Source of the DNA: a gamma proteobacterium HIMB30
Lineage (GTDB): Bacteria; Pseudomonadota; Gammaproteobacteria; Pseudomonadales; Litorivicinaceae
DNA length: 64,000 bases
Direction: 5' to 3'
Assembly (NCBI GenBank): GCA_000227525.2
Contig: AGIG01000002.1
Span: 62,001 to 126,000, forward strand
A model generated the notes under the pieces. It was not told where the DNA came from and made no database searches. It was given only the letters and a program-made list of their open reading frames with translations. Below are positions 1 through 3,110 of the stretch, in pieces (the first letter of the stretch is position 1; each line of letters begins with the position of its first letter). The position numbers and the translations under genes are program-made.

Positions 1-912
1 TCCATCACGCGACAACCGCAGTGATAGCCAGCGCATGGGCTGATCAATCGCCGGAAGTTCAGTGAGTAATCGTCGCACATAAACCCAATATGCAATACCG
101 ATAAGACCTCCTGAAAAGATCAGCGAGATGGCAAGTGTTGGGGCTTCGAAAAGAAGGATCAATATCATCATTGCTAAGGCAGCTGCTAAACCAACAAGTG
201 ATACGTCGCGATAATACTGGGCGAACAGATGAATGATCCAAACAGCCAACGCAACAATACCCAGGCTTCCAAGCGCAACAGTGAAATAGTGATAACTCAG
301 CACAAAACCTGGTGCTTCGAGAGTCACTAACGCGCAAAGCCAACTCACAACAGCAACAATCGAGACAATCGATGCAGTCACCAAGACAGGTAGCGCGCGA
401 CGTTCCTCGGGCAGCGAATCCTGCTCCAACATTGTTCGCGGCACATGATCAGCGATCAGCGGTGTCATAATATCGGGCGACATTGGTTGAGCGAATCTGA
501 TCGACTGATCCAATGACTCCCCGAACCAAGACCGGAAGGTGGGTTGCGCTAACTTCACGCTCCAGTCGATGAGGCCATCATCGACGCCTGCGACCGACAT
601 CATCTGACGAATGGGTTGAATCAACTGGTGACGTCCAAGATCACCAAGTCGCGGGATCAGACTGAGTGGGAGCCGACTTTCAAATGAGATCGCTGTGTCT
701 GCGATTAACTGAATACGTAAATACTCTGACTCAGGAACCAGGAACCAACCTGATTCAGGAACTGGCATGGTTCCAATTTCATCGTCTGAAATCAGAAGAC
801 GAAGTCTCGCCTCGCCTTCTTTGACTTGCCATAACCGGTCTCTAGCAAGGCCTGCTGAAATATTGCCGGCTGCGAGCTCGAAGACCTGTGTTTCAGTCGA
901 GCTCAATGACAT
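1..912 (-). CDS. Partial membrane protein, NHLM-type ABC-exporter-like N-terminal part
   Basis: This is the N-terminal ~304 codons of a protein whose 3' end lies beyond the left edge. I read it directly on the minus strand from ATG at 910-912. The start overlaps the end of the preceding gene by 20 bases. Residues 1-70 hold a small beta-rich segment (LWQVKEGEARLRLLI) that resembles the cyclic-nucleotide-fold-like N-terminus of ABC proteins in NHLM-type peptide export systems. A charged linker follows, then about four hydrophobic helices in the last 130 codons. No ATPase domain is visible, but it could lie off the edge. The assignment to an export ABC family is inference. The open frame and coupling to its neighbours are seen directly. 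Confidence 0.6.
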   Translation of the reverse strand, partial: MSLSSTETQVFELAAGNISAGLARDRLWQVKEGEARLRLLISDDEIGTMPVPESGWFLVPESEYLRIQLIADTAISFESRLPLSLIPRLGDLGRHQLIQPIRQMMSVAGVDDGLIDWSVKLAQPTFRSWFGESLDQSIRFAQPMSPDIMTPLIADHVPRTMLEQDSLPEERRALPVLVTASIVSIVAVVSWLCALVTLEAPGFVLSYHYFTVALGSLGIVALAVWIIHLFAQYYRDVSLVGLAAALAMMILILLFEAPTLAISLIFSGGLIGIAYWVYVRRLLTELPAIDQPMRWLSLRLSRDG

Positions 913-2122
913 CACCCTCCCACAAGTCAGACACGCTGGAAAATACAAAAATACGACAATTCGCAAACCCTAATCGATTCAGTAGTTCCATTTGCCGATC
1001 AGCCGACAAAGGCGCTAACGCATCAACCAAAATTAGAGTGTCCGCACCTTGTGCCAGTGCTCGAGCGACTGCCAATGCCGCTGCCTCTGAGGATGAGAGT
1101 CCTTGATTGTCAGGTCCGATTTGATAGTCGAGTGAATCACCGAAACGCACTCGCCAATGAGTCATGCCGATCAATTCCATCAAATTAGCGAAATGGTATT
1201 CACCCTCGTCACTCGCATCCCAAGCAAAGTTACTCCTTAAAGTGCCTGGCAAAAACTCAGATTCTGGACCTAGAACAGTAATTGGTTGGCCTTGACGAAC
1301 CAGTTCTTCGCTCGCGCGCAGGAGTATCTCTGGAACCTGTGTCCGTAAGACATGTACTCCCGAGCCTTTGATGTGAAGTAGCTCGAGCAACTCATCCATC
1401 ATTTTTCTTGGCTCTCGTTCGATCCGGACCCGAGGTTTCTGTGTAATCGCTCGCGCTTGTTTGAAATGACGTGTTGGCATCAGATCAAGAAATAAGAAAC
1501 CAAGCCCTACCACCCAAATTGATGCCGACAAGTGCAGGACACTATCAAGCATCAACATGCCAAGAACCGTGCAACATGCGAGGATACGGCCACCAACATC
1601 TCTGGACAGTCTCGGAATCCAATCAGGCGCCATCGCATCTAAAGCTGCTTCAAGGTCTCGCCACTGCGATCTGTGAATTAATGTGATTGACGTGTACGTT
1701 GTCGAAGCCAAAATGAGAGCTGTTAAAATCCAAAGCGGAGTCAACGACAAATCATTCACCTGACCGAGAATGCTAACCAGCAGCACAAGCAGTAATCGTG
1801 CGAGGACCACTAACGTCAGGGCGAGCCATTGTATGGTCAGTCGATAATCAGCGACCTCAGGCTCAAGCACGTATCCGCCGACCGCAAACGCCTTTCGCCA
1901 CCGAATGAGATGGATTTTTGAGTCGCCATCAATACTCATCACCCATCCAAAGAGCTGATAACGTACACGTTGCAAGAGGCCATGTTGATCGACAAAGATA
2001 GATCCAGAGACTGGCGGCTTTAAACGACGTTCTCTCAACTGGTATCCGAGTGATTCAGCTTCATCGGCGACCGCTTCAAAAGTCGCTCCGGTTGCAATAA
2101 AGCCATCCAAGGTCGCTGTCAT
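893..2122 (-). CDS. ABC half-transporter-like protein with degenerate ATPase domain
   Basis: This 409-residue protein has a soluble N-terminus (1-95), four hydrophobic helices (about 96-120, 126-149, 180-199, 200-217) and a C-terminal segment that aligns by eye with the second half of an ABC ATPase. The FPGTIxEN-like stretch reads FLPGTLRSN (about 290-298). The signature LSGGQ is LSSSE (342-346) and is followed by an ARAL motif. Walker B reads LILVDAL (363-369), so the catalytic Glu is Ala. The H-loop His is missing, and no Walker A exists. It should therefore not hydrolyse ATP. Its start overlaps the upstream stop as ATGA. It may be the inactive half of a heterodimer or a scaffold in peptide export; that role is inference. 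Confidence 0.6.
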   Translation of the reverse strand: MTATLDGFIATGATFEAVADEAESLGYQLRERRLKPPVSGSIFVDQHGLLQRVRYQLFGWVMSIDGDSKIHLIRWRKAFAVGGYVLEPEVADYRLTIQWLALTLVVLARLLLVLLVSILGQVNDLSLTPLWILTALILASTTYTSITLIHRSQWRDLEAALDAMAPDWIPRLSRDVGGRILACCTVLGMLMLDSVLHLSASIWVVGLGFLFLDLMPTRHFKQARAITQKPRVRIEREPRKMMDELLELLHIKGSGVHVLRTQVPEILLRASEELVRQGQPITVLGPESEFLPGTLRSNFAWDASDEGEYHFANLMELIGMTHWRVRFGDSLDYQIGPDNQGLSSSEAAALAVARALAQGADTLILVDALAPLSADRQMELLNRLGFANCRIFVFSSVSDLWEGDVIELD

Positions 2123-2625
2123 GGGTTTAAGCTACGGCCTAGCAGATCAATGAGACGAACACGCCCGCTAATCAACGTCACGTCACAATGTTCACCTGGC
2201 GCCGGGATATTCACATCTGACTCGGTGACAACCTGTTGTAATCGAACACCTTGATTAAACAACCGCTCTGCCAATAATCGGCTTCCAACCCAGTCGCGAA
2301 TATCTTGAACAGACAACATATCGCCTGACTCAGTAAACACTTGACCGATGAGTGTCACGTCTTGGCATGTCACATCAACACGCTCACCCAGTACACGTGA
2401 GCGAATAGTCGAGGGGACGAAGAGTGCGACTTCAGCCTGTGCGGTATTGCCAAGCCCACGGTGTGAGGTCACAACACCAAGCGTGGTTTGCGTATCTGCG
2501 ACCCGAACTGCCCACAGACTGATTGCCCAGATCACAATCAATAGAACAACAAATGGCCATAACCACCACATCCGGCGAGGTAATCCTAAACTGTCTGTCG
2601 CCGATTGGCGCGTTTCTTCAGCCAC
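2119..2625 (-). CDS. Short membrane-anchored protein resembling a truncated HlyD-type adaptor
   Basis: This 168-residue protein starts at GTG (2623-2625), with GAGGGA as ribosome-binding site. A single hydrophobic helix (about residues 20-42, WLWPFVVLLIVIWAISLW) follows a short cytoplasmic N-terminus; the rest would lie in the periplasm. Its size and C-terminus (CDVTLISGRVRLIDLL) recall the ends of membrane-fusion proteins of NHLM-type exporters. However, the long coiled-coil hairpin of HlyD proteins is absent, so it is much shorter than that family. It sits between a cyclic-nucleotide-like gene and an ABC-like gene and overlaps the latter as ATGA. The adaptor role is inference. Confidence 0.5.
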   Translation of the reverse strand: MAEETRQSATDSLGLPRRMWWLWPFVVLLIVIWAISLWAVRVADTQTTLGVVTSHRGLGNTAQAEVALFVPSTIRSRVLGERVDVTCQDVTLIGQVFTESGDMLSVQDIRDWVGSRLLAERLFNQGVRLQQVVTESDVNIPAPGEHCDVTLISGRVRLIDLLGRSLNP

Positions 2626-2634
2626 TTTGGTCCC

Positions 2635-3045
2635 TCATAAAGTGGTCTCTAACTGACTCACAACATACCGGAATTTCAAACGGGCCGCTTCCACATCAGC
2701 GAGGCCACGGGCATCAGGTTGTGCAAGCCGAATTTCAGCGGACATGGCAACAGCAATCGCAACGCTCCAGGCCGTTCGATGTTGACGGGTCAGTGGTAAC
2801 TCGAGTGCCCAAACGGGTGTCATGAGACTCCAAAGCGCACCTCGCTCGACCTCAAGATACCATTCTGAAATCCCCAGTAATGCACCACTACCCCGAACAT
2901 GACCTCGACACTCGAGTTGTCCGTCAAGGATCAAGGTCGGCTTCGGGAAATACACATCGATCCCCGGATCCAAATAGACTCCTTGACCATGGTCTACGAT
3001 CCATTTCAAATCCTGATTTTCAAGATGTGCGATCCACGGATTCAT
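2635..3045 (-). CDS. Small protein with possible cyclic-nucleotide-binding-like fold
   Basis: This ~136-residue protein is the first gene of the four-gene left-edge cluster. I start it at ATG 3043-3045; an adjacent TTG at 3046-3048 is the alternative. The stretch with VYLDPGID and LILDGQLECRG resembles the beta-roll of cyclic-nucleotide-binding domains (a G-containing turn followed by ILxGxLE). The usual phosphate-binding cassette (GE..L plus R.A) is not evident, so ligand binding is doubtful. The second half is alanine-rich and probably helical. No membrane segment or signal peptide is seen. It lies 65 bases downstream of lysS and 9 bases upstream of the next gene. Its function is not recognised. 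Confidence 0.5.
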   Translation of the reverse strand: MNPWIAHLENQDLKWIVDHGQGVYLDPGIDVYFPKPTLILDGQLECRGHVRGSGALLGISEWYLEVERGALWSLMTPVWALELPLTRQHRTAWSVAIAVAMSAEIRLAQPDARGLADVEAARLKFRYVVSQLETTL

Positions 3046-3110
3046 CAATTCACCATCGAGAAAAAAGCGAACAAATCAACAGCGATGGTTCGCCGATGAC
3101 CAGCCCCTGG

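Follow-up and report, generated by a model that had tools for sequence, protein, structure and literature searches.

Organization of the locus

The window analysed here, i.e. the whole stretch of 64,000 nucleotides of the gamma proteobacterium HIMB30 (G000:C35:62001-126000), contains at its left edge part of a five-gene operon on the minus strand, A-B-C-D-E, in which C and D encode relatives of ATP-binding cassette (ABC) exporters whose ATPase motifs, as judged from alignments, are destroyed in every orthologue checked. Gene A (2635..3048), the first gene of the operon, follows lysS after 62 bases and encodes a protein of 137 aa that has no hydrophobic segment. Gene B (2119..2625) encodes 168 aa with a single transmembrane helix at about residues 22-43, and gene C (893..2122) encodes 409 aa that comprise an N-terminal domain (1-95), about four transmembrane helices (96-214) and a shortened ABC nucleotide-binding domain (NBD; about 230-409). 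The first 304 codons of gene D lie in the window (1..912) and the remainder reaches G000:C35:61074, which gives a full-length protein of 612 aa with a predicted beta-roll (10-82), about six transmembrane helices (169-378) and an NBD (395-612). Gene E, the last of the operon, is located wholly outside the window (G000:C35:60617-61081), overlaps D by 8 bases and encodes a protein of 154 aa that weakly resembles cyclic nucleotide (cNMP)-binding domains.

A preliminary description of the window had reported four minus-strand genes that are joined by a 9-base gap (A/B), a 4-base overlap (B/C) and a 20-base overlap (C/D), and these coordinates were confirmed. Since the window edge cuts the fourth gene, however, its count of four genes and its impression that every part is shortened are partly artefacts of the edge. 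Four open reading frames are indeed present and B and C are truly short, whereas the contig to the left of the edge completes D to 612 aa including a C-terminal NBD and adds the fifth gene E.

Among the orthologous loci, the B/C overlap is 4 bp in 19/19 and the D/E overlap is 8 bp in 17/19 and 14 bp in the other two, with the start of E taken by script as the candidate start nearest to the end of D in each genome. At the A/B junction, anything between a 10-base gap and an 11-base overlap is found, and C and D overlap by 10 to 26 bases. The frames are open in the related genomes, the exception being D of G002, which contains ambiguous bases and an unreadable start. As the same genes thus recur with open frames, the cluster is not a chance arrangement, and the single occurrence with disrupted relatives that had been envisaged as a possible outcome is not what the related genomes contain. 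A scan for promoters and terminators near A returned chance level only, and no free-standing NBD gene is found between A and E.

C and D as relatives of ABC exporters

In profile comparisons with ten peptide-exporter ABC proteins, the NBD of D reached an E-value of 1.9e-18 and that of C 8.3e-7, and control profiles of MFS, M14 and FAH proteins gave no match in the same comparison. NCBIfam ABC models (HlyB, CydC, CydD, NHLM ABC2 and others) match all 18 D sequences, mainly within the NBD in the member shown, and the CydD model matches 18/18 C sequences (best 2e-9). The underlying alignments contain 18 of the 20 C sequences (G019 and the G007 fragment left out) and 18 of the 19 D sequences (that of G002 included, that of G019 left out).

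The structure model of D consists of strands (10-82), helices (83-140) and transmembrane segments (about 169-283 and 306-378), followed by the NBD; hydropathy alone yields four segments for the D protein of this genome. By VIA-align, residues 165-612 align to type IV exporters, best to PCAT1 with a Z score of 14.5 and a root mean square deviation (rmsd) of 16.6 over 346 residues, a high value that probably results from the unsure placement of the domains. For C, both the model and hydropathy indicate about four transmembrane helices, and residues 231-409 align to NBDs with Z scores of about 12-13 and an rmsd of 3.1-3.6 over about 147-170 residues. C and D are hence ABC-exporter relatives. For C this agrees with the earlier proposal of a shortened ABC half-transporter that lacks a working ATPase, for which profile, fold and motif evidence is now available. 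D had been portrayed as a second multi-helix protein that starts with a cNMP-like segment. Its predicted beta-roll start and an ABC-exporter body are in place, but the cNMP-like signal is found in E, and in A via E, and a mere multi-helix protein it is not, as it also carries a C-terminal NBD that is likewise dead.

Outside of the NBDs the similarity fades. The transmembrane and N-terminal parts of D match nothing tested by profile, its N-terminus matches neither A nor E, and C and D do not match each other as whole profiles. PDB sequence searches with C 1-96 and D 1-161 returned nothing below an E-value of 0.1. We further noticed a short RLSRD stretch in the cytoplasmic loop before the last helices of both proteins (C 171-175, D 299-303), which is invariant in C (18/18) and conserved in part in D, where R299 and R302 do not vary, and which may represent a coupling loop common to C and D.

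Loss of the ATPase motifs

Motif positions were set by alignment to working ABC proteins and counted in 18 D sequences (G002 left out) and 19 C sequences (G007 fragment left out). In D, the Walker A lysine is replaced by Leu444, the Q-loop glutamine by His486 and the H-loop histidine by Arg595, each in 18/18. The SGGQ of its signature corresponds to Gly542-Pro543-His/Leu544-Gly545, with G542, P543 and G545 in 18/18, such that LSGGQ mostly reads AGP[HL]G, and the catalytic glutamate is His566 (16/18) or Asn566 (2/18). C carries Pro286 in place of the Q-loop glutamine and Ser395 in place of the H-loop histidine (each 19/19), LSSSE instead of LSGGQ (S344, S345 and E346 in 19/19), Val366 (17/19) or Ile366 (2/19) at the Walker B aspartate and Asp367 at the catalytic glutamate (19/19). 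The pattern GxxxxGK[ST] occurs in none of the 18 D and none of the 19 C sequences, and an intact ATP site, scored as Walker A, Q-loop, signature, Walker B glutamate and H-loop, was found in neither protein. In a C-D pair, each composite site would combine the Walker A of one protein with the signature of the other, and both combinations are broken. From these alignments we conclude that the ATPase motifs of C and D are destroyed in every orthologue checked.

In the genome of the window, PF00005 has 54 matches, one of which is D, and GxxxxGK[ST] is present in 51 of the 53 others. Of the two that lack it, the first is a half of a 523-aa protein with two NBDs, the remaining half of which (L184) is intact; the second is a partial match, within a frame of 948 aa, that leaves the Walker A region uncovered. 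Among the 40 best-scoring PF00005 matches, a set that favours intact motifs, the signature and the Walker B glutamate were each found in 37 by pattern.

Distribution within one marine genus

When the searches with C and D are combined, 21 of the 22 genomes analysed from a single marine genus (Litoricola/OM252) carry the operon, and the sole exception (G004) is a genome of 60% completeness. C was detected in 20/22 and D, with matches at 1e-100 or better, likewise in 20/22, and A-E stand together on one stretch in 18/22. Broken assemblies are seen in G007, where the operon is spread over two contigs, in G017, where the stretch stops at C, and in G006, where one contig bears a fragment of D and another breaks off after lysS and an M14-type gene. 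Named records that carry the genes place the genus in Litoricola/Litorivicinus and include the isolate LSUCC0096; this isolate belongs to the OM252 clade, which its authors regard as a separate genus next to Litoricola, its sister (PMC8269220).

The three genomes of the sister genus (G022-G024) lack A-E, and the best matches therein are NBDs of other ABC proteins. At E-values up to 1e-12, the C profile had no match outside of the genus among 293 genomes of the order and 398 of the phylum, samples that include 11 and one genus members, respectively, every one of which was matched. Among 274 genomes of the class, the N-terminal part of D matches the genome of the window (G000) alone, and B matches G000 plus one weak place (6.9e-4). 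A peptide-pattern scan of genome contigs recovered 19 loci with genes identical to those of the genus genomes above; it could miss distant relatives, since one of two short peptides was required.

Selection and inheritance

Ratios of nonsynonymous to synonymous substitutions (dN/dS; Nei-Gojobori) were calculated for up to 12 chosen close genome pairs, namely 11 for most genes and five for the neighbouring MFS gene due to cut or missing genes. The values were 0.012-0.205 for A, 0-0.157 for B, 0.025-0.179 for C, 0.033-0.183 for D and 0.014-0.136 for E, with the G002-G009 value of D (0.173) being inflated by an ambiguous stretch, compared to 0.012-0.091 for lysS and 0.036-0.219 for the MFS gene. 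A-E thus lie mostly at 0.02-0.18, somewhat above lysS, and are under strong purifying selection. The NBDs belong to the regions under tighter constraint (C codons 279-409, 0.006-0.179; D codons 396-612, 0.020-0.124 where computable), which together with the low overall ratios argues against simple decay. The protein distances of A-E track those of lysS (Spearman 0.88-0.96, 120-153 pairs), and the operon has hence been inherited along with the chromosome.

The partner proteins A, B and E

For B, A and E, 16 of 19 sequences each were aligned; the other alignments contained 17 (A6), 19 (A7) and 11 sequences each (A8-A10). The approximately 120 residues of B that follow the helix presumably reside in the periplasm, and its two cysteines C87 and C147, invariant in 19/19, probably form a periplasmic disulfide. 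Family searches with B returned weak and unrelated matches only. It had been described as a one-helix adaptor, and the single helix stands; the adaptor role is suggested by topology alone, since the best profile match to HlyD proteins (E 0.042) is not significant.

With the Pfam model cNMP_binding (PF00027), 12 of 16 E sequences match at E-values up to 1 (best 5.9e-5), and comparison with chains of PKG, PKA and PycTIR gave weak matches (best E 0.0052). Glu67 (19/19) and Arg76 (18/19) are nine residues apart, which is also the spacing within the phosphate-binding cassette of PKA. E may still bind a cyclic nucleotide. The profile of A matches that of E (E 1.6e-5, probability 79%; 2.4e-4 in the reverse direction), so a distant, cNMP-like homologue of E is the probable identity of A; the A protein of this genome has no Pfam or NCBIfam match.

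Comparison with known ABC systems

Membership in the NHLM-type peptide exporters, to which the preliminary description had likened the cluster, does not hold up. The likeness to these systems (NHLM/NHLP; TIGR03794/03796/03797; PMC2887384) is one of gene order, i.e. a one-helix protein followed by two ABC proteins of which the second is extended at its N-terminus. The differences are that the model thresholds are missed, that no leader scores over the cut-off, that C39 signal and detectable adaptor homology are lacking and that the ATPase is dead. In numbers, the TIGR03797 score of D amounts to 55.9 bits (2.7e-15, in the NBD region) at a cut-off of 709.4, and similarly weak matches exist for 18/18 D sequences (best 1e-15); the cut-off is passed in none of 57 relatives and in nine of 299 genomes of the phylum. 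On TIGR03796, the ABC protein with a C39 peptidase, four of 18 C sequences match (best 2.4e-4; cut-off 853.3 bits), and no match to the HlyD-type adaptor model TIGR03794 was obtained for 16 B sequences at E-values up to 10, with HMMER filters dropping most matches above 0.1. None of the 22 genus genomes contains an NHLP leader (TIGR03793) over the cut-off. Below it, frames of 118-249 aa match patchily within the genus, in six of 22 genomes (G005, G007, G011, G012, G016, G020), and these are probably the nitrile hydratase alpha subunit itself.

An NHLM origin was also tried part by part with profiles of real NHLM loci from the phylum, which consist of a HlyD protein, a C39-ABC protein and a large ABC2 that is extended at its N-terminus (ABC2 assigned by TIGR03797, the others by reading). 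It was rejected, as the NBDs alone match. A likeness seen by eye between the C-terminus of B and NHLM adaptors, and between the N-terminus of C and C39 domains, was dropped as well, since the profiles reached only E 0.053 against five adaptors and E 0.23 against the C39 parts of three ABC1 proteins. An origin from CydDC was rejected for the reason that peptide-exporter ABC proteins match more strongly by profile and the transmembrane parts match neither. On the CydDC models, the best values are those of C on CydD given above (18 members) and of D on CydC (1.3e-16), and the C and D proteins of this genome match mainly with the NBD and far below the NCBIfam cut-offs.

Among known systems, type IV (type I exporter) ABC proteins such as PCAT1, HlyB or CydDC come closest, and the resemblance comprises the body and C-terminal NBD of D and the NBD fold of C. 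The differences to these exporters are the destruction of both ATP sites, the approximately four helices and missing P-loop motif of C and operon partners A, B and E that lack a firm family assignment. With heterodimeric exporters that contain a degenerate site (TM287/288, TmrAB, TAP, ABCC), the pair shares two different ABC subunits, conserved degenerate positions and the glutamate to aspartate change seen in C, which is among the changes named in PMC7756269. In those systems, one consensus site still hydrolyses ATP, whereas here neither protein has the Walker A lysine, an intact signature or the Walker B glutamate. Concerning cNMP-binding proteins (PF00027; PKA regulatory subunits, PycTIR), the matches of the E family are weak and the printed scores lie below the Pfam cut-off.

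Possible function of the complex

From our point of view, the products of the locus form a complex of the inner membrane that descends from an ABC exporter, that has two catalytically dead NBDs and that probably serves as a scaffold or sensor and not as a pump that hydrolyses ATP, and we have about as much confidence in this reading as doubt. C and D would assemble in the manner of type IV exporter halves, and the dead NBDs would provide a fixed cytoplasmic dimerisation platform. B would join C-D through its single helix and reach into the periplasm with its disulfide-bonded domain, and A, E and the beta-roll of D would bind a small ligand, or one another, on the cytoplasmic side. As a whole, such a complex would span the membrane, respond to a ligand and, as scaffold or sensor, regulate another process of the envelope. 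The repurposed complex that had been considered before fits the data in this respect.

A single dead ATP site is tolerated by the heterodimeric ABC exporters known so far, whereas in C-D neither site is intact. The replacements have stayed fixed throughout the divergence of the sampled genus, although its genomes are small and neighbouring genes have been lost from some of them. In a narrow search of the open-licence literature, we came across no report of an exporter-type pair that has lost both ATP sites, and work on NHLP-type systems of Legionella contributed nothing further. There is a real chance that this ABC-derived complex without the defining ATPase constitutes a new class. The wider notion of a new ATP-free machine with an ABC fold, whose cassettes became inert before the genus radiated and which uses a cNMP-like input for ligand-gated signalling or gating in one marine lineage, is one that we put forward only tentatively and would sooner doubt than assert. 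The locus makes it possible to ask whether an ABC exporter scaffold can work without any ATPase and what replaces the input of ATP, and with LSUCC0096 from the OM252 clade there is a cultured member.

Several points weigh against the scaffold or sensor reading. The assembly of C with D and the function of a complex are what we infer, the pair being known here from genes and single-protein models. The ABC exporter fold with a C-terminal NBD emerges from profiles, NCBIfam models and structure models, but Pfam ABC_tran matches 0/18 C sequences and gives D scores of 23.8 and 27.3 bits at a cut-off of 25. The models are of moderate quality, with a mean predicted local distance difference test score (pLDDT) of 70 for C and 69 for D and values below 50 for most of the P-loop region of D, and VIA-align itself cautions that helical bundles may frequently yield Z scores below about 13. 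D retains Asp565 of Walker B as well as the larger part of its P-loop backbone, and the aspartate-for-glutamate exchange of C (Asp367) also occurs in known degenerate sites; hence ATP binding without hydrolysis is conceivable. Regarding the cNMP-like input, the E protein of this genome has no cNMP_binding match, four of the 16 E sequences have none, and two E scores on PF00027 amount to 17.2 and 13.9 bits against a gathering cut-off of 27.5. A-E moreover evolve about 1.7-2.3 times faster than lysS. Lastly, a dead ABC body could also transport by means of ion gradients.

The latter point leads to the main rival, an ATP-independent transporter in which the shortened transmembrane parts of C and D still provide a path that is driven by an ion gradient or simply gated by A, E or the beta-roll of D, with B as periplasmic outlet. 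The approximately four and six helices in the models of C and D and the alignment of D 165-612 to exporters are compatible with such a path, and a truncated LmrA without NBD, which is described as a secondary-active translocator, offers a precedent (PMC6155054). The same paper, however, also reports that the ATP-started current of LmrA is not seen without the NBD. As C has only about four helices, the model of D shows hardly any cytoplasmic loop between helices 2 and 3 and no obvious substrate gene was seen next to A-E in the 11 genomes whose surroundings were listed, we consider such a transporter unlikely. It is also improbable, in our opinion, that the complex is regulated by ATP because the NBDs still bind nucleotide or because it borrows the ATPase of another protein. 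The mostly kept P-loop backbone of D (E-G-A-G-L-S/T-T) together with Asp565 speaks for binding, and cydC- and cydD-like frames, named by reading alone, are located a few kb away in four genomes. Binding is opposed by the leucine at the Walker A lysine in all D sequences, by the absence of GxxxxGK[ST] from all 19 C sequences, by the alteration of both signatures and by the Asp to Val/Ile exchange in C, and a borrowed ATPase by the lack of a free-standing NBD gene between A and E.

That the cluster is a reduced but working NHLM-type peptide exporter appears very improbable to us. What speaks for it are the outlined gene order and the weak similarity of the D NBD to TIGR03797, yet D fits models of the HlyB and CydC/D types just as well, every NHLM model tested fails, and B, the N-termini of C and D and the transmembrane parts have no significant match to real NHLM proteins, in addition to the dead ATPase motifs. 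These lost motifs and the reduced length of B and C compared to normal proteins could, finally, also indicate a decaying exporter remnant that is heading for loss. The dN/dS ratios, the open frames and the recurrent junctions in orthologues with identities down to about 43%, in contrast to the neighbouring MFS gene, which is broken in two and not seen in nine of 20 stretches, render this explanation scarcely credible.

Genomic neighbourhood

The gene lysS shares the stretch with the operon in 18 of 20 cases and either adjoins A or is one gene off (G003 and G020). An M14-type, AstE-like gene is present in five of the 22 genus genomes and was not found in the others, namely in G003 (L051:6991-8118), G010 (L053:49-912), G020 (L054:11818-12945), G007 (L140:1072-2199) and G006 (L139:2794-3780). 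In G003 and G020 it separates lysS from A, whereas in G010 and G007 it is located upstream of A on stretches that do not include lysS. As it also occurs in the three sister-genus genomes without A-E, it was rejected as a sixth operon member and is regarded as a neighbour.

In the sister genus, the M14 gene is followed by EamA-type, MFS and QueD-like genes in G022 and G024, and M14, MFS and QueD-like genes stand together in G023, with names that come from reading of the frames except for AstE_AspA_cat (Pfam). The operon is situated between the M14 and the EamA-type gene in G020 and, over two contigs, likewise in G007. Since it thus stands within the gene order of the sister genus, the block was probably acquired when the genus arose, or else the sister genus has lost it.

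The MFS gene that follows E in HIMB30 was rejected as an operon member because of its instability across the 20 stretches, being near full length in nine of them, with some of the stretches in which it is not seen ending soon after E. In G019 and G021, it exists as separate pieces (L038:11310-12431; L039:11863-13007) beside intact A-E. The cydC- and cydD-like frames mentioned above are found on the other strand past E in G020, G010, G007 and G001 (L054, L053, L055 and L042), and a likely cydD is also present in G013.

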